Source: Saccoglossus kowalevskii | Lineage: Eukaryota; Hemichordata; Enteropneusta; Harrimaniidae | Length of the DNA: 43,132 nucleotides | Assembly: GCF_000003605.2 (NCBI RefSeq) | Contig: NW_003126883.1 | Coordinates: 1,243,611 to 1,286,742 of the forward strand | Reading direction: 5' to 3' | Shown: in pieces, positions 18 through 43,132 of the stretch | How positions within the stretch are numbered: the stretch's first letter is position 1 | Layout: every line of letters starts with the position of its first letter | Program-made: the position numbers and the translations under genes | Notes under the pieces: model-generated | The model's input: only the letters and a program-made list of their open reading frames with translations | Databases searched by the model: none | What the model was told of the DNA's origin: nothing

Positions 18-115
18 CTGTCCCATCCTATATCTTCTATCTGTTGTATAAGATGAGTGTATAATCTTGGCATCTCTCCTGTAGTGACCATGCTTTCAGA
101 CTCCAGCATTTTCTC
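18..115 (-). CDS. FANCL: FANCL coding exon 4 (last FANCL exon in window)
   Basis: 98 bp, residues 91-122 plus two bases of codon 123. The acceptor TTTTCAG has its AG at 117-116; the donor is GTAGTG (17-12). The peptide ends with a Y-x-x-LI-x-x-IE-x-x-GWD motif, corresponding to human FANCL FYSSLIEEIGTLGWDK, the link from the ELF domain into the central UBC/RWD-like (URD) domain. The rest of that domain and the C-terminal RING are expected beyond the left edge. The segment between ELK and this motif is poorly conserved, as in other FANCL proteins. Confidence 0.92.
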
Positions 116-5962: not shown

Positions 5963-6462
5963 GATGATATAGTTTGGTGGTCAACTGACAAAATTTTCAT
6001 TCTAGTACAAAAAGAACAATAGTATAATTACGTGAAATGTTTCACACTTCAGAATATTGTAGCAGAGCATGAAAATATTTTTGATTCTGATAAAATCCAT
6101 GATAATGAGAAACATTGTTGATACCACTTGCTCAGAACATAAAATCTTAATTTGTTTTTATCTATTTTTTTGTTTTGCTTCAAAATTTTTATTCTGTGAA
6201 TCTTTTTGCCTCCATCAAAAGATAATACTTGATATAGAAATATTGCTGGGTATAATATTAAATGTATTAAGTGAAATCTAACTCTTTTACACAGCTTAAG
6301 TTACCTTCCCACTGCAAGCATGTATAACAAGCAGAACACCTTCCACTGATTATTGTGACAATGATGATAAATGATTTGAAGTACCTTGTAGATATTTACT
6401 ACCTTATACTAAAATATGTTTGGATATTTAGATATTCACCCAAAGAGTTCATAATATGTATA
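5963..6462 (-). other. FANCL 5' flank / 5' UTR region
   Basis: AT-rich, with no CpG-rich promoter and no TATA box that I would trust. Two plausible minus-strand 3' splice sites precede the start codon: CTTTTTGTACTAG (exon from 6001) and TTTTGTCAG (exon from 5984). The true transcription start may therefore lie farther right with a spliced 5' UTR. Confidence 0.4.
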
Positions 6463-7614
6463 AACAAGCAGCCTGTCGGCTGAGATAGCTCCGCTGTTAG
6501 CAATGCACATTTCAATTAAAGAACTGAAGATATCATTAGAAAATGAACAATATGTATAGTATCAAAGCAAAGGACCTTGCTGTTTTCAACAAGAATTCAA
6601 AAATATCACTTTTCACCAAAAATGACAAAAATAATCATCAAAATTAAGTAATTGAAGATATCACCACGAAATTAACAAGGTCCACATGTAATACCTATAT
6701 ATGTAATATAAAAGCAATCAGACTTGCGGTTTTTAACAAGAAGTCGAAAATCTCACTTTTTACCAAAAATGACAAAAATATTCACCAAAATTAAAGATAT
6801 CATTACAAAATGAACAAATCTGAGAGAGGTCCACATGTAGTACCTATGTATGTAATATAAAAGCATTTGGACTTGCGGTTTTCAACAAGAAGTTGAAAAT
6901 ATCACTTTTTACCAAAAATGACAAAAATATTCACCAAAATTAGAGAATTAAAGATATCATTACAAAATGAACAAATCTGAGACAGGTCCACTTGTAGTAC
7001 CTATGTATGTAATATCAAAGCAATTGGACTTGCGGTTTTTAACAAGAAGTTGAAAATATCACTTTTTACCAAAAATACCAAAAATATTTACCAAAATTAG
7101 AGAATTGAAGATATCATTACAAAATGAACAAATCTGAGAGAGGTCCACATGTAGTACCTATATATGTAATATCAAAGCAATTGAACTTGCGGTTTTTAAC
7201 AAGAAGTCGAAAATATCACTTTTTACCAAAAATATTCACCAAAACTAGAGAACTAAAGATATCATTACAAAATGAACAAATCTGAGAGAGTTCCACATGT
7301 AGTACCTATATATGTAATATCAAAGCAATTGGACTTGCGGTTTTTAACAAGAAGTCGAAAATATCACTTTTTACTAAAAATGACAAATATATTCACCAAA
7401 ATTAGAGAATTAAAGATATCATTACAAAATGAACAAATCTAAGAGAGGTCTACCCAAGGTACATATACACCAAGTATCAAAGCATTCAGGCTTGTAGTTT
7501 TCAAGAAGAAGTCAAAAAAGTAAAACATTGACACGAACGACGGACGCCAGACGACGCCGACGGACAATAACTCATATGATATGCTCCGCTCGACAAAGTC
7601 GACAGCGGAGCTAA
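6463..7614 (-). mobile_element. Helentron/DINE-1-like nonautonomous element, family H1 copy A
   Basis: Read on the minus strand. The 5' end (7614) starts TTAGCTCC and folds into a hairpin (outer arms AGCTCCGCT and AGCGGAGC, inner CGAC/GTCG, loop TTT). A GTCCGTCGGCGTCGTC tract follows, then about seven tandem units of roughly 157 bp (anchors GAAGATATCATT near 6525, 6654, 6787, 6950, 7107, 7254 and 7411). The 3' end has the subterminal ACAGCGGAGCT, the short palindrome CAGCCGACAGGCTG and a CTTGTT tail. Hairpin ends, short subterminal inverted repeats, a variable-copy tandem core and insertion beside T runs are the features described for nonautonomous Helentrons. No replication-helicase coding region is present, so the class is inferred from structure. 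Confidence 0.6.
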
Positions 7615-8004
7615 CAAAGTTGTTTTACAGATCTCAACAAATACTGAGATTTTAAGATCGATTTTTGATGTGAAAAATATTTGCTTTTAATTGAAGATAA
7701 TTCTGCACTATGCCAGCTTAGAACATCATCCCACAACTTTCGGGTTGAATCTGATCGTAAATTAAACATACAGAGGATTATGAGAATTGGTAAATTATGT
7801 AATTTAGGGTTGGTTGAGGATGTTTTCCATGTTATGAAAATCTTGGAAAAAAATATTCACCTATATTCTATCAGTCAAATCAGACATATAACGCAGTTTG
7901 ACAACTTATCTATAAGTTCAAATTTCAAAATTTGTATTCTTAGGTTCTAAACAGAGAAAATCCAGTTAACCAGTTGTGACTTGTAGGTTCAATGATTAAT
8001 TAAA
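7615..8004. other. Unassigned AT-rich spacer
   Basis: No gene, splice-flanked exon or recognisable repeat. A 270-nt open frame at 7681-7950 begins at TTG rather than ATG and shows no family resemblance. Confidence 0.7.
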
Positions 8005-16477: not shown

Positions 16478-18992
16478 CGTATTTATCTGGGTAAGAGCCC
16501 ATGCCCTGGCAAACGCCCACCCCCACTTTTGACACATTAAAGAAGTTGAGTTCATATTCTTTTTCTACACAAAAATAACAAAAAACTATTTTCTATTTGT
16601 TGACTGTGGTTTTATTAACAGTTGACATTCTTGCAGTCTGTTGTGATGCTTATAAACATTCTTTAAAAATAATTGTTAATTGCATAAAACAAGGGGTGAA
16701 CGTGAAATAGCTCAGGGCAGCAAGTTCACCGCTGATTTACATTTATTTTTCAAGATTTTTTTTTCAGAATCATAACAGTCAGCAAGTCTATAAAAATATA
16801 TATTAAAGCAGAAACGGTAGTTCCCTTTTTAGCTCCGCTGTCGACTTTGTCGAGCTGAGCTTATCATATGAGTGATTGTCCATCGGCGTTCGTTGTCTGT
16901 CGTCGTCCGTGTCAATGTTCAACTTTTTTGACTTCTTCTTGAAAACTACAAGTATCAATGCTTTGATACTTGGTGTATATGTACCTTGGGTAGACCTCTC
17001 TCAGATTTGTTCATTTCGTGATGATATCTTCAATTCTCTAATTTTGTGAATATTTTTGTCATTTTTGGTAAAAAGTGATATTTTCCACTTCTTGTTGAAA
17101 ACAAAAAGTCCAATTGCTTTGATATTACATATATAGGTACTACATGTAGACCTCTCTCAGATTTATTCATTTAGTGATGATATCTTCAATTCTCTAATTA
17201 TGGTGAATATTTTTGACATTTTTGGTAAAAAGTGATATTTTCGACTTCTTGTTAAAAACCAAAAGTCCGATAATTGCTTTGATGTAACATATATAGGTAC
17301 TACATGTGGGCATTTCCCAGATATGTTCATTTCATGATGATATCTTTAATTCTCTAATTTTGGTGAATATTTTTGTCATTTTTGGTAAAAAGTGATATTT
17401 TCGACTTCTTGTTAAAAACAAAAAATCCAATTGCTTTGATATTATATAAATAGGTACTACATGTAGACCTCTCTCAGATTTATTCATTTCGTGATGATAT
17501 CTTCAATTCTCTAATTTTGGTGAATATTTTTGACATTTTTGGTAAAAAGTGGTATTTTCGACTTCTTGTTAAAAACCGCAAGTCTGATTGCTTTAATATT
17601 ACATAAATAAGTACTACATGTGGACCTCTCTCAGATTTGTCCATTTTGTGATGATATCTTTAATTCTCTGATTTTGGTGAATATTTTTGTAATTTTTGGT
17701 AAAAAAGTATATTTTCGACTTTCGTAAGACTGCTTTTGCTATTATATATATAGGTACTACAGGTAGACCTCGCTCAGATTTGCTCATTTGATGATGATAT
17801 CTTCACTTATCTAATTTTAATGAATATTTCTGTCATTTTTGGTAAATAGTGATATTTTCGAATTCTTGTTTAAAACAGCAAGTCTGATTGATTTGATACT
17901 ATACATATTGTTCTATTTCTAATGATATCTTCAGTTCTTTATTTGTGCAATGTTCATTGCTAACAGCGGAGCTATCTCAGCCGACAGGCTGCTTGTTGAA
18001 ATTTGTCGTGGCCCTAAAAAGGGCCGGCCGTTTGGTTTGTGCTTCCTTAAAAACGCTTCAAGCAACTCGTATAAGGAGAGCCGCCAAGCATGTGTCACAC
18101 TCGGACGGCCGTAGCATCATCAACAATTAAACCAATGTTTCAATATTGTAGCAGTCCAATTTTTTTACCATTTTTCATCACTGCTATTGCATTTCTGTCA
18201 TGAAAACTATTCTTCTGTTGTTGGATAAAGAAAAAAAAAACTTCCTATTTCATGCCCACCGCGATATCCATATAGTGAGACCACCAGAACTTGCTGAATG
18301 ATAACTTTCACCATGATTGATAAGCATCTGATAAGAAAGCAATGTCACAATACGATTTGACCTTTATGATGAAACACTAGTAGTGATGTCATTCTTAGCC
18401 AATCAGTAAAGCAGATGCATAACGATCAAAGATGATTGCCAGACTGTAAACAAAAGCATTGTGTGCCATCGCAGCAGGGCAACCCCATTTTTCTTGTCTC
18501 TTTATTGTGATTAGACATGAATGAAAAGTGCCAAGCTGACAGACTGCAAAATCCGTGGATTAAAAGTGTCTAAATTGTGTGAGTAGATATCAACAAATTT
18601 CAGGGCAAATCTGTAGGGATTTTGTTCGACGGCAACAGTGAAGCCGACTTGGACTTGAGGGTTTTGAGTTTGACGAAGATGGCAATGAACGTACAAATAA
18701 AGATGTGAGAATTTTTTTCAAACAGCTATGAATTTTTATAATTTTTACTGTGTAAATTTGTAAATTTTTATTGATCTTGTATGACAGTTGATCCGCAATT
18801 TGTTAAGACCGGAAATAATTTTACGCAGTTTAACTCCTGACATTTTTGTTCATTTTGAGTTCGCGCAAATATAGGCCGTGTTTGTCGGTGAGGAAATCCC
18901 AATTCAAATTATTTTTTGCAGGGGATATCCGGGCAAACGCCCACCCTTATTTTTTGGAAATTTTCCATGTTCAGGACCCTAGGATAAATACG
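16478..18992. mobile_element. TIR transposon with 4-bp GTAC target duplication (copy 1)
   Basis: The ends CGTATTTATC and GATAAATACG are perfect 10-bp inverted repeats, flanked by GTAC on both sides (16474-16477 and 18993-18996). With the element and one GTAC removed, the flanks read CATATGTAC then AATATTATGTGTGATG. This aligns without a gap to the uninterrupted H2 sequence (reverse complement of about 42475-42499), which proves insertion into an H2 copy. A second, truncated copy lies at 41109-42092 and lacks the nested H1 element. The copies share a region that in copy 2 carries a 49-codon acidic ORF and in copy 1 is frameshifted. Superfamily not determined. Confidence 0.75.
16829..17997 (+). 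mobile_element. Helentron/DINE-1-like element, family H1 copy B (nested)
   Basis: The 5' end TTAGCTCC follows a T run. The head has AGCTCCGCTGT (16831-16841), whose inverted partner ACAGCGGAGCT lies at 17963-17973. The tandem core has anchors GATGATATCTTC near 17019, 17176, 17335, 17492, 17650, 17791 and 17920, a period of about 157-159 bp falling to about 130-140 in the last units. The 3' palindrome CAGCC-GACA-GGCTG is at 17978-17991, then CTTGTT. It lies inside the GTAC transposon and is absent from that transposon's second copy, so it is the youngest layer of the nest. It has no coding capacity. Confidence 0.65.
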
Positions 18993-18996
18993 GTAC

Positions 18997-19113
18997 AATA
19001 TTATGTGTGATGTATGTGTGAAGTTAGATTGTGATTGGTCCAGGCATGGACACATGGACGCAAAAAGGTCACAACATAAGTCCCTCTTTTTGGACTGCAT
19101 CCATACGGGGACT
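18997..19113 (-). repeat. Head of the interrupted H2 copy
   Basis: The minus strand starts AGTCCCCGTATGG (19113), forms a stem with AGAGGGACT (ending 19079), then runs TTATGTTGTGACC, GCGTCCATGTGTCCATG, CTTCACACATACATCACAC. This is the same word order as the intact head at 42338-42490. The downstream half of this copy is at 15676-16473, beyond the inserted transposon. Confidence 0.7.
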
Positions 19114-19152: not shown

Positions 19153-19258
19153 TGCGAGGCGAGGCGAGGCGAGGCGTAGTGTAGTGTAGTGTAGTGTAGT
19201 GTAGTGTAGTGTAGTGTAGTGTAGTGTAGTGTAGTGTAGTATAGTATAGTATAGTATA
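19153..19258. repeat. Pentanucleotide microsatellite (GAGGC)n-(GTAGT)n-(ATAGT)n
   Basis: About four GAGGC units, then roughly fifteen GTAGT units, then a few ATAGT units, a stepwise-mutated pentamer array. It gives spurious open frames on the minus strand (LHYTT repeats) that should not be called genes. Confidence 0.95.
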
Positions 19259-27891: not shown

Positions 27892-28312
27892 AACGAACAT
27901 AGCACATGCACGCGGATTAGCTAAGAATACAAGGTAGTCAAAAATAGACTAATCAGGTCCATTGTGTCATGTGGTAGTACGATTTAAGCACAAGACAAGA
28001 AAAGCAAGTTATCTGAGTTTGACTTCACTTCACAAAGAATAGGGTCCGTGGTTTTAAAAAAACATGCAAAATGTCAAATGTTAATCACAGGTTTCTTGAT
28101 CCAAACTGTAAGAACACATCCTGATTTATGGTGTACACTTTAGCATATCCAGTAACATCTACATATGCTATGTTTACACGGCATCATTCTACAGGAGCCG
28201 AGCTTCTGCTTCTGCTTCTTCCCATTGATTAAAAGAATTAAAAACCTTTTGTTTTTGCTGATCACTCTTTTGTCTTTGTTTGCATTGTGTGAATAGATAT
28301 GCCAATGTCTTT

Positions 28313-29044
28313 TTAGCTCCGCTGTTGACTTTGTCGAGCGGAGCTTATCATATGAGTGATTGTCCGTCGTCGTCCGTGTCAATGTTTTACTTTTTCGACT
28401 TCTTCTTGAAAACTACAAGCCTGAATGTGTTGATACTTGGTGTACCTTGGGTAGACCTCTCTCAGATTTGTTCATTTCATGATCATATCTTCAATTCTCT
28501 AATTTTGGTGAATATTTTTGTCATTTTTGGTAAAAAGTGATATTTTCAACTTCTTGTTAAAAACCGCAAGTTCAATTGCTTTGATATTACATATATAGGT
28601 ACTACATGTGGATCTCTCTTAGATTTGTTCATTTTGTAATGATATCTTTAAGTTCTCTAATTTTGGTGAATATTTTTGTCATTTTTGGTAAAAAGTGATA
28701 TTTTCGACTTCTTGTCAAAAACCGCAAGTCCAATTGCTTTGATATTACATATATAGGTACTACATGTGGACCTCTCTCAGATTTGTTCATTTTGTAATGA
28801 TATCGTCAATTCTCTAATTTTGGTAAGTATTTTTGTCATTTTTGGTGAAAAGTGATATTTTCTTCTTGTTAAAAACCACAATCATTTATGGTGAAAAATG
28901 ATATTTTTGAATTCTTGTTGAAAACAGCAAGTCCCATTGCATTGATATCATGCATATTGTTCATTTTCTAATGATATCTTCTGTTCTTTAATTGAAATGT
29001 GCATCGCGAACAGCCGAGCTATCTCAGCCGAGAGGCTGTTTGTT
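28313..29044 (+). mobile_element. Helentron/DINE-1-like element, family H1 copy C
   Basis: Starts TTAGCTCCGCTG after a T run. It has the head hairpin, a GTCCGTCGTCGTCCGTGTC tract and four core anchors (28480, 28637, 28796 and 28970), so a shorter core than copies A and B. The end carries CAGCCGAGCT (a mutated ACAGCGGAGCT), the 3' palindrome CAGCCGAGAGGCTG and a TTTGTT tail. Confidence 0.62.
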
Positions 29045-29267
29045 TAGTGAAAATTGTTGAATATCATAACTACAATGCTGCTTCAACACCTTTTGTGATT
29101 TTGTAGTCTATGTTTTTATGTTGTAACCAGCTATGCATTACAGTGAATCATGTGTGAATCTATGTTTAGTATTTCATCTCTGCAAATGTCACACATACTC
29201 TCAATAATGATCAGACATGTTGTCAGGATATTTCACCTTCATCAGGCAAGTTACAAAATGTCAGTCT

Positions 29268-29632
29268 GTCGGCTGAGATAGCTCCGCTGTTACCAATGCA
29301 CATTACAATTAAAGAACTGAAGATATCGTTAGAAAATGAACAATATGTATACTATCAAAGCAATCGGACTTGCGGTTTTTAACAAGAAGTCGAAAATATC
29401 ACTTTTTACCAAAAATTACAAAAATATTCATCAAAATTAGATAATTGAAGATATCATCACGAAACGAACAAATCTGAGTTAGTTCTACTCAAGGTACATA
29501 CACACCAAGTATTAAAGTATTCAGGCTCGTAGTTTTCAAAGAGAAGTCAAAAAAGTAAAAAGTTGACACGGACGCCGATGGACAATCACTCATTTGATAA
29601 GCTCCGCTTGACTAAGTCGACAGTGGAGCTAA
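29268..29632 (-). mobile_element. Helentron/DINE-1-like element, family H1 copy D
   Basis: Minus orientation. The head begins TTTTTAGCTCCACTGTCGAC (ending near 29635). Only two core anchors are present (29447 and 29319). The 3' subterminal ACAGCGGAGCT and CAGCCGACAGACTG are at about 29272-29296. It is the shortest of the four copies and lies tail to tail with copy C, 223 bp away. Confidence 0.62.
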
Positions 29633-29882
29633 AAATGCCATCAATATGCTGCATTAATTATGTCAGTAGATATATACCGGCTTTTTTCTATCCTGGTATT
29701 ATTTATATTTTAGCAAGCGTGTAAACATGACAAATATAAATTACAAAATATAAATTACAGAACTTACGCTGGTTGCATGCAGTGACACTGTTAATAGAAT
29801 TTCTTTGCCATATTGGAGTGTAGACAACATACATTTCGTGCTCTTACATTAATATGGCATGACATGTATGTTGATTTTTTAT

Positions 29883-30043
29883 TACCGTAAAATCTGTATT
29901 AGAAGCCGCATCCCTAATAGAAGTCACACCCATTCATTTTGAATAATTGAGAACCAAAAATTCATCATTGCTCATATGTGTAGATGCTCTAATGGAAGCC
30001 GCATCCCCTCTGTTGCATTGTACCATTTTAATAGAAGCCGCGG
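29883..30043 (-). mobile_element. MITE (TACCGTAAAATCTG family), one end missing
   Basis: Starts TACCGTAAAATCTGTATTAG, then AAGCCGCATCCCTAATAGAAG; it aligns to the reverse complement of the complete copy at 40243-40426 but loses the far terminus after AAGCCGC. It shares an ACACCCATTC variant with the copy at 31245 and not with the one at 40243. These two may therefore be the long inverted ends of one 1.5-kb element. Confidence 0.55.
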
Positions 30044-31244: not shown

Positions 31245-31417
31245 TACTGTACAATCTGAATTAGAAGTCGCTGTCAGATGCAACAGTAGGGATGCGTCTT
31301 CTATTTGCGCACCTCTATACACATATGAGAAATGAAAAATGTTTAGTTCTCAATTTTTCAAAAAGAATGGGTGTGGCTTCTATTAGGAATGTAGCTTCTA
31401 ATACAGATTTCACAGTT
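31245..31417 (+). mobile_element. MITE (TACCGTAAAATCTG family), complete but diverged
   Basis: Begins TACTGTACAATCTGAATTAG and ends CTAATACAGATTTCACAG, the inverted terminal repeats of the family. The interior matches the 40243 copy (GTTCTCAATTTTTCAAAAAG, GGCTTCTATTAGG). Confidence 0.6.
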
Positions 31418-34400
31418 CTAGTATAAATCTGTAACATAGATCTTAACCAATATATCACAATTTTAACAATTTGTCTGTCTTCGTAGTGCGGTAGGGCCAA
31501 TCATAGATGTACGAATATGGCGTATTAATGGAATTATACATTTCATACATTCTTTTTGAAAATGTTTCCTACTGAAATTTTAAGTACAACCTTTAGGGCG
31601 ATATATAAAAGCAACTCTTGAGTGCAACAAATGTCAGTAAAGTTAAGTAACTATGACAACACTTCAGTGTCTCGAAGCATAAAGCCAACAAACTACTGCA
31701 TCATCAATTAAACTAAGCTTTTATTCACACAACTAATATGTTTGATAAGTCTTTGTAAGAGGCAGTCTCCATCAATGTTTTACTAACACTCTTAGAATGT
31801 TATATTAAGGGTTTGACGTCAGGGGAAGTAACCAAGTGAAGCTTTACTCCATTTGTAATAATTGTTGCTTCCTGGTTTTTCATTCATTCATTTCTCATCT
31901 GAAGGCCATTGCCTGAGTGAACTCGTTTATTTGGTTGGCAGAATCCTCATAGAAAGATTAGTTTTATTTTTAATATGTTTTACCTTTTCACCACCAGTTC
32001 TCTCTTTTCATTACAAATTCACAAAATAATCCAATTTATAGTCTGCTTTTTCTTTCAAAAATAGCAAACAAAATTTAGTAAAAACTAAAAAATTATTAAA
32101 GCTTTGTTAGTTCGTTCTAAAATTAGGGTTCATTTCAAGAAATATTGAAGAATATAAGAAAAAAAGGGCAAAATAATTTCGCAAGAAAGTCTGATGATGA
32201 AAAACTTAAATTTGATAATGAAATTCAATTTTAATAGTCAAAACATATGTATGGTAGTAGCATGTTTGTCCTATGTTTTGAATATGTTTTTTTTTTCCAG
32301 GAAATATATCTTTTTTCCCCCAATATTTTCTGCTACAAAAATCAGTATATGATTGTATAAAATACTGCCCTATCTGGTTTATCGAATTTCTTTAATTCTA
32401 TGAATATACTAATTTGATGCAGAACACATATTTGGTATTCCCATATGTGGTGCAGAACATAGTTGTCTGTTATGTAGTTATATTTTTACAATTTTGCCCA
32501 TTTTCTCATCCAGAATTATGGCTGCCCCATTAGAGTTTAACGCCATCCCTCACCACAAAGTCAATATTTCTATGGAAACAAGTTTACCTACACACAATTT
32601 TTATTCAATTTTTTTGTCATTTATAATTTGAGGAAATATAATTTATGTTTTCAATTTTACTGGATATTGAAACAAATTAATTTAAAATCATGATCTTAGA
32701 CATTTTACAGTATCATGACAGTTACAATCTGACTGATAAGATTCGTTAACTTTACCCGAGACCCGAGTGTAATTTATAGTACTTGCGACAGTAGCCTAAG
32801 TCAATATTACCGCATATAAAGTTTGCTAAAGTCTTTGCATTTAAAGGTTATTTAGAAGTGTCTGAGTTTGCGATACATTGTGTAATAAGGCAGCTACTTA
32901 AATTTCCTGTCTGAATAGAGCTAAAAAAAAACATTTATGTGTTTAGCCCAGAATGTAAGATATGATATGACAACAGAATAGAGGTCACACAGTAAACTGT
33001 TGTCATTTGAAGGGTTTCAGAGTATGCAATTATGGTATAATACAGTCAAATTTTATGTATAGTGACCACTTAAACAGAACCTCAACCAGCATAGAAATTC
33101 ATTTTTATAATAGGTTGTAATTTGACTCCATGACTCCTGAATTTCTCTGGCAATTTTAATGCATTTCAAATATATGATAATTTATTTTAAATTTAATTTT
33201 AAAAATCATAAATCCTTTTATTTAGCAACTATTTGATTCATATCTATTCATATTTTGATCATTTATTTGTCGGTACATGGTTATGATTGCTTATTTATTT
33301 CGATTTAGTTTAGCTAAACATTGTCTACCTTATTCATTCGGATTAAATGTCCCAAAAGTTATGATCCCTTTGATGAGCCCCAAATTAAATTAAATAATTG
33401 CCAAAATTTTGAAAAATATGCCTCTCAGTGAAAGTTGCCACAGTTGAGATGTATAATTATGTAGATGGACAAGGCTGTAATAGTTTCTCTATGTTTCTGG
33501 TTGCGACTATGCGTTTTATGGATCCCTACCCTTCAAAATCTTTAACAACATTTTTAGATTTTTTTTGATTAGATTTTTTTTATTGTGGCCCAGATCTCAA
33601 AGGTCAAAGAACATGTGACCTATTAATCAACAAAATAAAATTTTATAATTTTTCAAAAAATACATACCAAACCAACAACTTTTGGAAGGAAAATTATGCC
33701 ATTCAGAGGACTATAGAGCACCTGAGTACATGTACAGAAAAATGTGGGCGAGAAAGTCTGTTGGTCAAAATAACAGGCAAAATAGACCGGCCAAAATTAA
33801 AATTGTTGTGGAAATGAATTACAATGTATTGTAAAAGAGAAGATACATTTTAAAGAAAAATTGGATTATGTAACATTATATTATGTACTTTATTCAAAAT
33901 TCACTGTACATGATGTATTTGGTACATACGATAATGTCAGTTTATTTCCTCAATTTGTGTGAACACCATACCAGGTTGAGTGACGGACTGAAGACTAAGG
34001 ATTAAAAACATCTGACGTAAAAAACGAAACATGAATGAAAGTCACAGTGTTGTATGAGACCTCACTGACTGTATTTGTAACACAAATATGCTTGCAAGGT
34101 GACGTAATACTGTGTGTCATATCAATGTTGACACCTGTATTATTTCGTTTCAAAGTGCGACAATGATGCCGGGATTTTGAATTGCTTTATCACATGTTGT
34201 TTGTATTCTTTAAAGTGTCTATGTTGAATGACAATTTAAAAAATGTAATCGTGGTACAGTATACAATTCAAAAAATGCTCAAGAAAGTCTAAGCAGCCTA
34301 CACATTACGAATATCCCCTGCAATTCATAGGTCATTCATGTGATTTTTTTTGTCATTCGCGGCCTTAAAGACTGCTGTTCAGATTGCTTTTCAGACTACC

Positions 34401-35349: not shown

Positions 35350-35575
35350 GACTCCCGTGTGCAAAGCACAAAAAGGGAGTCTTTGCAGTTAGTGTGTCTG
35401 ACTGTGTGTCTGTGTGTGCGTCTGTTCCATCGATATCTCAAGAACCAATGTTCGGATTTCAATGAAACTTTGTATATAGCTTGTCTGGGGCAATGCACAG
35501 ATTTGATTAGTTTTTGGTTGACATCCATGCATATTAATGAGCTCATCTGCATAATAATGTGTGAATTTTAAGCTA
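35350..35575 (+). repeat. Hairpin-headed repeat, family H3
   Basis: The head pairs GACTCCC (35350-35356) with GGGAGTC (35375-35381) and inside has TGTGC-AAA-GCACA. A TCTG/TGTG-rich tract (about 35390-35425) follows, then ATCGATATCTCAAGAACC and a TTTCAATGAAACTTTG phrase. This is the same order (hairpin, pyrimidine/CGTC-like tract, ATCTC phrase, 'ATTTC-ATT-AAACTT' phrase) as family H2, but with different primary sequence in the hairpin. Confidence 0.55.
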
Positions 35576-39066: not shown

Positions 39067-39297
<231 letters not shown>

Positions 39298-39330
39298 TAA
39301 TTTTTATTAGCCTTCCGCCACTTTTCTTTG

Positions 39331-40242: not shown

Positions 40243-40426
40243 TACTGTAAAATCTGTATTAGAAACAGCGGCTTCTATTAAAATTGTACAATGCAACAGA
40301 GGGGATGCGGCTTCTATTAGAGCATCTGTACATATAAGATATAATGAATTTTTGGTTCTCAATTATTCAAAAAGAATGGTTGCGACTTCTATTAGGGATG
40401 CGGCTTCTAATACAGATTTTACGGTA
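40243..40426 (+). mobile_element. MITE (TACCGTAAAATCTG family), complete, 184 bp
   Basis: Ends TACTGTAAAATCTGTATTAG and CTAATACAGATTTTACGGTA: 20-bp inverted repeats with one mismatch. Internal CTTCTATTA words repeat (near 40270, 40311, 40387 and 40403). It has no coding capacity. Best preserved of three copies in the window. Confidence 0.75.
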
Positions 40427-40624
40427 CTAGTAAATTCTTGTCAGGACAGGATCAAGAGTTATGGCTAACATCATATCTAGTCATTAATTTTGGTGATTTA
40501 TCATTATAACCAGTGTTTTCACATGTCTGTCTAGTAATCACTAGGATCAAGCGATATAGAGAGCAAAAATATTAAATGAAGGATTTTTGTTTTTATTTAA
40601 CAAGATATTTATATTTTTTTCTAG

Positions 40625-41108: not shown

Positions 41109-42092
41109 CGTATTTATTGGGGTAAGCACCCAATTTTGATGCAATGAAGAAATTGAGGGCATGTCCAGGCATACGCCCAGGCGGTCTTTTCCTACATTTG
41201 TTTGTTGTATTAACAGTTGACTTTCTTTAGAAACGATTCAAGCAAAACTTACAGAAAGCATAGCAAGTGTTGTACTTGTTCGGCTTTAGCATCATCGAAA
41301 AATTGAAACCAATGTTGCAATATTGTAGCAACCCCTACCTGGGAGAGTGGTTGAAATCACAATATTTTGGCTTCATAAAACATTTGGTAGCAGCTTGTAA
41401 ATCTATAACTGGGGCCAGCAATTTTGCAATGTCATGCTGAAGACTTTTTTATCATCTTTCATCACCGCTATTGAATTTCTGACATGAAAATTATTCTTCT
41501 GTTGTTGAAAAAAAAAAATATTCCCATTTCAAGCGATATCCATATACTAGTAGTGAGACATTCCAACCGCCGGAACTTGCTGAATGATAACTTTCACCAT
41601 GATTGATGAGTGTCTAGTCTGATAAAAAAAGCAATGTTGACTTGTAGCAGAATTGTTTGTGGCAACCCCATTTTTCTTGTCTCTTTATTCTGATTGGACA
41701 TGAATTAAAAGTGCCAAGCTGAAAGACAGCAAAACCTGTCGATTAAATGTGCTAACTCCAAATTATGTACGACGACATCGACGAACTTCTGGACGAAGCT
41801 TTGGGGATTTTGTTCGGAGACAACAGTGACACCGACTTGAACTTTGATGGTTTTGACTTTTATGAAGATGGCAATGAATGTACAAATAGAGATCTGAGAA
41901 GTTTTTTCAAATAACAATGAACTTTTGTAATTTTGATTGTGTAAATTATTATTGACCTTGTGTGACTGTTGAATCGGTATTTGTCAAAACTGACAATAAT
42001 TTTACGCAGTTTACCCCCTGACATTTTAGTTCATTTTGAGTTCATTCGTATTGGGCATGTTTGTCAGTGGGGAAATTTTAATTCAAATGATT
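41109..42092. mobile_element. GTAC-transposon family, copy 2 (right end lost)
   Basis: Starts CGTATTTATTGGGGTAAGC, like the terminus at 16478, and follows copy 1 through shared words: TTGTAGCA near 41327, CTGACATGAAAATTATTCTTCTG near 41476, AAAGTGCCAAGCTGA near 41707, TTACGCAGTTTA near 42001 and TTTGTCAGTGGGGAAAT near 42059. It stops after TTCAAATGATT. It has no H1 insertion, so it shows the state before copy B inserted into copy 1. Confidence 0.7.
41765..41914 (+). pseudogene. 49-codon acidic ORF inside GTAC transposon copy 2
   Basis: ATG-led and stop-terminated, rich in Asp/Glu (DDIDELLDEALG near the start; TDLNFDGFDFYEDG in the middle). The homologous stretch in copy 1 (about 18590-18710) is frameshifted. 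Short acidic N-termini of this style are common in piggyBac-like and other transposases, so this may be the only surviving piece of the parent transposase. The 4-bp GTAC duplication does not fit piggyBac (TTAA), so assignment stays open. Confidence 0.35.
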
Positions 42093-42107
42093 CCTCACTG
42101 TCGAGTT

Positions 42108-42337
42108 TTATTAGTCCCCGTTCGGACGAAGTTCGAAAACGGGGACTTATAATTCGGTCTGCGTCTGTGCATCCGTTCGTCCGTCCGAGTTCATATCTCA
42201 GAATCCTTTGGACCGATTTCGTTCATTCGTTGCATGTGCCTAGTACTTTATGTGGGACATATGCACATGCAGTGGTTTAGCGATTTGATTCAAAATGGCC
42301 GACTGGCAGCCATCTTGTTTTTTGAAAATGTTTTATT
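42108..42337 (+). repeat. H2 copy with intact head hairpin (truncated or interrupted)
   Basis: The head stem AGTCCCCGTT (42113-42122) pairs with AACGGGGACT (42138-42147). CTTATAATTC, a CGTTCGTCCGTCCG tract, ATCTCAGAATCC and GGACCGATTTCGTTC follow, ending at an ATGGCCGACTGGCAGCCAT hairpin word (about 42295-42313) and a T-rich stretch where the next copy starts. Confidence 0.75.
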
Positions 42338-43132
42338 AGTCCCCGTTCGGACGCAGTCCGAAAACGGGGACTTATGTTTTGCCCTGTGTGCGTCCGTCCG
42401 TCCGTGCGTCCGTCCGTCCGTGATCACCTGTATCTCGAACATGCATGGACCGATTAAGTTCAAACTTCACTCATACATCACACATTATATGGGACATATG
42501 CACATGCATTTTTTTCATGATCCGATTAACGATAGCCGAATAGCGGCCATTTTAAGGCCGAAAATGCATCAAAATCGCACATTTTCACCATTCCGGACCC
42601 GGATTTTGTTCAAATTTGGTACATACATTAAACATAATAGGACCTTGATGCACGTCATTTTTTTTTTTGGATCGGGTTCGAAATGGCCGACTGGCGGCCA
42701 TTTTGTTTTAAAGAATTCAGTTCTGGATTCGTATCTGAGACATGCTTGGATTGTTCGAGTTCAAACTTCACACACACAAGGTACATCATGTCACAAATAT
42801 GTATGTACATTTGTTTCATGATCTCATTAACAATAGCCAAATGGCGGCCGCTTTAAGGCCGAAAATGCATTGAAATCGCACATTTTCACCATTCCGGACC
42901 CGGATCTCAGTTATGCATGGACGGATTTTGTTCAAATTTGGTACATACATTACACATAATAGGACCTTGATGCACGTCATTTTTTTTTGGGATCGGGTTC
43001 GAAATGGCCGACTGGCGGCCATTTTGTTTTAAAGAATTCAGTTCTGGATCCGTATCTGAGACATGCTTGATGATCGAGTTCAAACTTCACACACACAAGG
43101 TACATCATGTCACAAATATGTATGTGCATTTG
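42338..43132 (+). repeat. H2 copy: head hairpin plus tandem 300-320-bp array, cut by window end
   Basis: The head pairs AGTCCCCGTT (42338-42347) with AACGGGGACT (42363-42372); the inner stem is CGGAC/GTCCG with loop GCA. Next come a (CGTC)n tract (about 42390-42421), ATCTCGAACATGC and GACCGATTAAGTTCAAACTTC, then units repeated at about 300-321 bp (AAGGCCGAAAATGCAT at 42554 and 42855; ATCGGGTTCGAAATGGCCG at 42671 and 42992). ATGGCCG-ACTGG-CGGCCAT is a perfect 7-bp hairpin in each unit. Open frames across it (such as plus 42234-42821) are repeat artefacts. Confidence 0.8.

Follow-up and report, generated by a model that had tools for sequence, protein, structure and literature searches.

The closest described systems are the non-autonomous Helentrons, for which the portions of the literature drawn on here give a common blueprint in which a 5' subterminal inverted repeat (subTIR) and a short inverted repeat (IR) that completes its hairpin are followed by a GTCY microsatellite, an array of satellite-like central repeats, a 3' subTIR and a 3' palindrome, with insertion at TT (PMC2374699, PMC4067079, PMC7492417). 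Excerpts of PMC4067079 tie such elements to endonuclease-encoding Helentrons and name the non-autonomous forms HINEs (Helentron-associated interspersed elements), while those of PMC7492417 describe oyster elements with identical modules, GTCY/GTCC/GTCK tracts and satellite-like arrays. Passages of the same two papers attribute tandem, 3'-truncated copies of Helitrons to terminator bypass, and both the general architecture and the idea of a structure that outlasts its sequence are in print for DINE-1 (PMC2374699, in the sections used); further context for the class is given in parts of PMC7992393 and PMC5139131.

Our analysis of 43,132 nucleotides of the hemichordate Saccoglossus kowalevskii (contig NW_003126883.1, positions 1,243,611–1,286,742, forward strand; hereafter the window) indicates, with a probability of roughly 93%, that the repeats H1, H2 and probably H3 represent three non-autonomous Helentron families, H3 being a probable HINE member, short of proof. 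The original prediction had guessed at a rolling-circle, Helentron-like mechanism, and this guess was borne out, the combination of subTIR, hairpin, GTCY tract and repeat core being the published hallmark of the Helentron class. The subTIRs occur as reverse complements at both ends in all four H1 copies of the window, in 20 of 29 H2 copies from the genome and in one relative of H3; a complementary IR lies close to the 5' subTIR, as in the DINE-1 and oyster type, and is partly broken in decayed copies. A GTCY-type microsatellite is present in the 5' module of 6/9 window heads (three or more motifs) and is also seen in H2 loci, and a palindrome directly follows the 3' subTIR in 4/4 H1 copies (one mismatched) and 20/29 H2 copies.

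Hairpins were found at the places where they had been predicted, with the arms as described: at 42113–42147 and 42338–42372 in H2, at 7583–7612 (minus strand), 16831–16861, 28315–28345 and 29600–29630 (minus strand) in H1, and at 35350–35381 in H3. Their internal make-up also agreed, with an inner stem CGGAC/GTCCG, loop GCA and a 2-nt AA bulge in the H2 head at 42338; an inner stem CGAC/GTCG, loop TTT and a 2-nt GT bulge in the H1 head; and an outer stem GACTCCC/GGGAGTC, inner stem TGTGC/GCACA and loop AAA in the H3 head. The 2-nt bulge, however, is carried by the 5' arm in H1 but by the 3' arm in H2, and the hairpin blueprint is therefore common to the families in outline only. The T run reported upstream was confirmed (at least five T in the 10 nt before 8 of 9 heads, versus 22% of random windows); the downstream tract of GTCC, GTCT or GTCG motifs was recovered in part, with three or more motifs within the next 80 nt in 6/9 heads and 2, 2 and 1 in the others, against a background of 2.1% of random windows.

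Several searches bear on whether such heads could be chance foldbacks, or structured RNAs, within unrelated satellites. A strict two-stem scan of the window, which admits perfect Watson-Crick stems only, returned seven rows at four places, of which two were heads (7583 and 42338) and the sole GC-rich ones (four rows) and two were AT-rich; six dinucleotide shuffles gave 0–5 rows, 0–2 of them GC-rich. The remaining heads were missed because of wobbles or mismatches in their stems. The DNA fold z-score was −7.1 for the head at 42338, −4.3 for that at 42113 and −3.6 to −6.3 for three H1 heads; the weaker scores of H3 (−2.2), the fourth H1 head (−1.6) and the H2 copies at 19 kb (−2.6) and 2.3 kb (−0.15) are what a chance origin has in its favour. 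Against it, Rfam at gathering scores gave no match, and the heads recur at the element start in 7 H1 and 29 H2 copies; a matched 3' module accompanies 20 of these H2 heads. We regard a chance or RNA origin as extremely improbable overall, and for H1 and H2 it is refuted by the matched 3' ends together with the empty site described below.

A covariance model built from four H2 heads and run over the window and 29 loci retrieved H2 heads on both strands and a few weak others; it scored the H3 head at only 14.4 bits (E 0.21) and detected none of the H1 heads at E values up to 1. Scanning both strands for a hairpin plus GTCY motifs gave five places (28315, 42113 and 42338, which are heads, together with 42065 and, on the minus strand, 5608) and no new convincing family. 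Exact or degenerate patterns of the H1 and H2 heads, the H1 3' end and the H2 phrases had no match in viral_contigs, the H2 head pattern had none in genome_contigs, and the H2 stretch had none among phages and plasmids.

Four copies of H1 lie in the window, and in each of them the hairpin, the subTIR at either end and the 3' palindrome are present, in some with a single mismatch. Three of them are read as complete HINEs: H1a (6460–7617, minus strand; 5' hairpin 7583–7612, 3' subTIR 6486–6497), H1b (16826–17996, plus strand; hairpin 16831–16861, 157-bp repeats 16990–17908, 3' subTIR 17963–17974, palindrome 17978–17991) and H1c (28310–29045, plus strand; hairpin 28315–28345, repeats 28454–28881, 3' subTIR 29010–29021). 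The fourth, H1d, is read as a short HINE (29254–29635, minus strand; hairpin 29600–29630, 3' subTIR 29279–29290). The 3' subTIR, ACAGCGGAGCTA, is exact in three of the four and has one mismatch in H1c; the 5' subTIR, TAGCTCCGCTGT, is its reverse complement and has one mismatch in H1d, as does the CAGCC/GGCTG-type palindrome which follows the 3' subTIR in all four copies. CTTGTT was present at the 3' end of two of the four copies, and of five of seven when three further ends from other genome loci were included. Tandem Repeats Finder reported a 157–158-bp unit with 5.0, 5.9 and 2.7 copies in the arrays of H1a, H1b and H1c, respectively. A de novo search of the window for subTIR-IR-subTIR triples with a 3' palindrome recovered three of the four H1 copies and nothing else, and 10 single-strand shuffles gave one. 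The insertion sites of H1 have T-rich 5' flanks, and outside the element limits the flanks differ between window copies. A joined-flank search found no H1 empty site in the window. At one genome locus (L012, 2438 onward), an H1 head stands directly after CTGACTTTTT in an H2 body; at 18 other places (at most one mismatch) the H2 body around CTGACTTTTT reads on as GGCC without H1, and the H1 head is therefore terminal.

The window holds other features besides these families. Pfam searches of six of its ORFs found no Rep/helicase protein, two giving GTP cyclohydrolase I and four nothing; the GTP cyclohydrolase I matches (PF01227; 23224–23712 covering positions 2–43 and 39067–39300 covering positions 48–82, plus strand) are read as two exons, and H1c, H1d and H3 lie between them. 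A short dispersed repeat occurs at 29874–30041, 31278–31423 and 40268–40435 (82–92% identity between copies), and a (GTAGT)16 tandem array with 98% matches at 19176–19255. Just after H1b, at 18010–18025, lies the palindrome GGCCCTAAAAAGGGCC, which by eye we take to resemble a histone 3' stem-loop; it had no Rfam match at gathering score.

H2 is represented in the window by two tandem copies and two diverged heads. H2a (42109–42330, plus strand; hairpin 42113–42147, GTCY tract and about one central unit) is read as a 3'-truncated HINE standing directly before H2b, of which the 5' subTIR-IR hairpin (AGTCCCCGTT / AACGGGGACT) occupies 42338–42372, the CGTC (GTCC) microsatellite tract 42388–42422 and the central repeats, in units of about 150–170 nt, 42430–43132, all on the plus strand. 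H2b runs into an assembly gap of 1285 N that opens immediately after the last base of the window; beyond this gap lie two H2-type 3' modules, one of them diverged. The diverged heads, both on the minus strand, are at 19079–19113, where no 3' subTIR was seen, and at 2276–2310, with a body extending to about 2024. A dispersed repeat is shared by 18133–18913 and 41419–42092 (~76–80% identity in aligned blocks), and its second copy carries a palindrome (42065–42100) directly before H2a.

Comparison of the H2a stretch with the genome (572 Mb, 4830 contigs) gave at least 105 matching pieces, with 40 of 2589 first-look candidates scored. The sample analysed comprises the 30 best-scoring loci, whose copies are consequently near-identical and among which L001 is the window's own. 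In 29 loci a head could be read with the pattern; L020 was left out, although a head in it does score with the covariance model. A 3' module was found in 20 of these 29 copies, giving element lengths of 569–1626 bp, and consists, with substitutions in some, of the subTIR AACGGGGACT, GTCATT-TTC-AATGAC and CTTGTT. The terminus was CTTGTT in 19 of the 20 modules and CATGTT in one, a proportion biased upwards by the search pattern, which itself includes CTTGTT (up to five substitutions allowed overall). In the other nine copies no 3' module was found within about 1.6–1.8 kb, one of the nine being the window copy that runs into the assembly gap. The central units were mostly about 140–150 bp in the genome loci.

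The insertion sites of H2 are T-rich, with T at −4 and −1 in 20/20 copies and at −3 in 18/20, and none of the 20 flank pairs showed a match of 5–8 bp between the two sides; a 4-bp match was seen in three of 20, where shuffles averaged 1.5 and reached at most 3. At one locus (L004), the H2 copy (1506 onward) lies inside a 157-bp unit of H1, which provides a paralogous empty site: the joined flanks gave 23 alignment rows with intact H1 units across the junction, and the 15 that lie in the window reach identities of up to 92%. TT occurs once at the empty site and on both sides of the insert, so that both ends of H2 are fixed, save for the TT. H2 inserts at TT or T-rich sites without target-site duplication, a TT-only duplication being indistinguishable from a carried TT; the three 4-bp flank matches, together with the TT that borders the L004 insert at either end, mean that a short TT-type duplication may occur. 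Whether the heads are terminal or internal had been named beforehand as decisive for the original prediction; those of H2 are terminal by the empty site, and those of H1 by their divergent flanks and the single 5' junction. The two HINE families are reciprocally nested, H2 in an H1 unit (L004) and H1 in an H2 body (L012). The H2 copies of L006 and L014 have similar flanks near the insertion on both sides, perhaps reflecting a common host repeat or a duplicated insertion.

These ends and flanks also bear on a reading of the families as MITEs, which are short, carry terminal inverted repeats and move by cut and paste, and to which pearl-like elements and DINE-1 were once assigned. High copy number and inverted repeats at both ends would suit such elements; however, the 3' repeat is internal, about 22–23 nt from the end and with the palindrome after it, the 5–8 bp flank matches are absent from all 20 H2 copies and the target is TT, and we hold this reading to be very unlikely. 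The canonical Helitron (5' TC, 3' CTRR, a palindrome ~11 bp upstream and an AT target) was likewise rejected, the ends here being (T)TAG... and CTTGTT and the target of TT type.

The H3 family has one head in the window (35350–35381, plus strand; GACTCCC/GGGAGTC), which stands after TTTTT and is followed by a TCTG/GTGT tract; no 3' subTIR was recognisable in this copy. L008 contains a relative (76% over 192 nt) with the head, GACTCCCATGTGC, whose outer stem is partly broken, with the tract and with units repeated in tandem at intervals of about 160 bp; its array continues into L032, where it ends with GCACATGGGAGTTC. The exact 11-mer GCACATGGGAG is present at both ends of this relative (as the reverse complement in the head), and these are its only two occurrences in the 139 kb examined. 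In this single relative no palindrome of 5 bp or more was found after the 3' subTIR, and no CTTGTT lies near it. A third, weak H3-like head was seen in L028 (79% over 34 nt, E 0.067). The families had been predicted to be unrelated in sequence, which stands for the H1 and H2 units and is less clear for H2 and H3: these gave a profile match with E 1e-4, and 1 and 0 of 300 shuffles scored as well as their body alignments when the tract was included, but 3 to 189 of 200 did so without it.

The original prediction went further, proposing that hairpin shape and not sequence is what the replication machinery reads; in that case one replicase would recognise the fold irrespective of sequence and selection would keep both stems in all families. 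The occurrence of a hairpin head in families with different arms within one genome is in keeping with this, as is the suggestion, in the parts of PMC2374699 drawn on, that the DINE-1 3' stem is kept by compensatory changes and that inverted repeats keep their structure while the sequence changes. The compensatory-change test, however, did not support it. The seven H1 heads showed no compensated change and at least one broken pair in four, as decay would give. Among the 29 close H2 heads, nine differ from the most frequent form, each by one change only (eight substitutions, one insertion), and with at most one change per head none can be compensated; the near-identity of the best-scoring loci sampled weakens the test. 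Four diverged H2 heads had double-sided changes in two of 60 cells, both in the inner stem, which would favour selection on the fold were it not that 127 of 500 shuffles reached as many; slid-partner controls scored lower, a tendency expected when structure is read from the same sequences. Moreover, the bulge lies on opposite arms in H1 and H2, and the outer arm is repeated as the 3' subTIR, so that the arms can be accounted for just as well by a machinery that recognises the subTIR sequence, which predicts their conservation without any fold. A search of the literature on Helentrons with compensatory or conserved structure gave nothing relevant among the matches listed. From the few diverged copies available, we consider it unlikely that the fold itself is the conserved signal.

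Alternatively, one Helentron might move HINE families of unrelated subTIRs by reading the 5' foldback and a common 3' terminus (the palindrome, then CTTGTT), which would leave the subTIR free to drift while its three copies stay complementary. This possibility, to which we give little credence, draws on the palindrome followed by CTTGTT at the H1 (5/7) and H2 (19/20) ends and is opposed by the H3 3' end without CTTGTT and by the lack of compensated changes in close copies.

Non-autonomous Helentrons are the reading that we prefer. Each element begins after T-rich DNA with the subTIR and its partly complementary inverted repeat, forming the hairpin, and continues through a GTCY-type tract into satellite-like units of roughly 140–160 bp; in H1 and H2 the subTIR then returns as its reverse complement, and a short palindrome and, in most copies, CTTGTT close the element. 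By analogy with the class, a Rep/helicase/endonuclease from an autonomous Helentron elsewhere would nick the ends, rolling-circle replication would copy a single strand out, the 3' palindrome would serve as terminator and the copy would insert at TT; terminator bypass would account for the tandem, 3'-truncated H2a ahead of H2b. Points that weigh against this reading are the absence of a Rep/helicase protein among the six window ORFs scanned, the nine H2 copies in which no 3' module was found, the possible short TT-type duplication, and H3, with its single relative and no 3' palindrome found. The rolling-circle transposon class is already known, and H1, H2 and probably H3 fall inside it and are explained in kind. 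The families themselves may be new, as may the CTTGTT 3' terminus common to H1 and H2, which has no mention in those portions of the published HINE descriptions that were drawn on here. A CTTGTT end common to two families with different subTIRs would fit a shared autonomous partner, and if it marks one, the features by which a Helentron transposase recognises its ends could be addressed. To the known HINEs our data add families from one animal genome whose cores are satellite-like, and the clean cross-family insertions are useful for dating and for calling boundaries.

Among known systems, mite HINEs (PMC2374699, PMC4067079, in the parts consulted, which treat a group of Drosophila, mite and Culex elements) are unlike the families described here in having palindromic subTIRs and no IR. 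The bivalve elements CvA and DTC84, of the pearl family, are mentioned in PMC5139131. Pearl-family elements are similarly modular with internal satellite-like tandem repeats; in a narrow test, the two BIV160 primers printed in PMC5139131 had no match at four mismatches, and at six bivR alone had four matches, none in an H1 array. Likewise by description, and within the sections of PMC7492417 used, Cg_HINE of Crassostrea gigas resembles the present families in its 5' subTIR (normally 11–12 bp) with a complementary IR 1–12 bp away, a GTCY/GTCC/GTCK microsatellite in several elements, a satellite-like central array, a 3' subTIR and palindrome, and T-rich or TT insertion without target-site duplication. 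DINE-1, in the accounts excerpted from PMC2374699 and PMC4067079, shares the partial inverted repeat beside the 5' subTIR, the GTCY tract, variable central repeats, a 3' stem-loop and the TT target, with a subTIR of 13 bp versus about 10 (H2), 12 (H1) and 11–13 bp (H3) here; in D. willistoni, the same excerpts divide DINE-1 into three subtypes that differ in their subTIRs and repeats, much as the families of this genome differ from one another.
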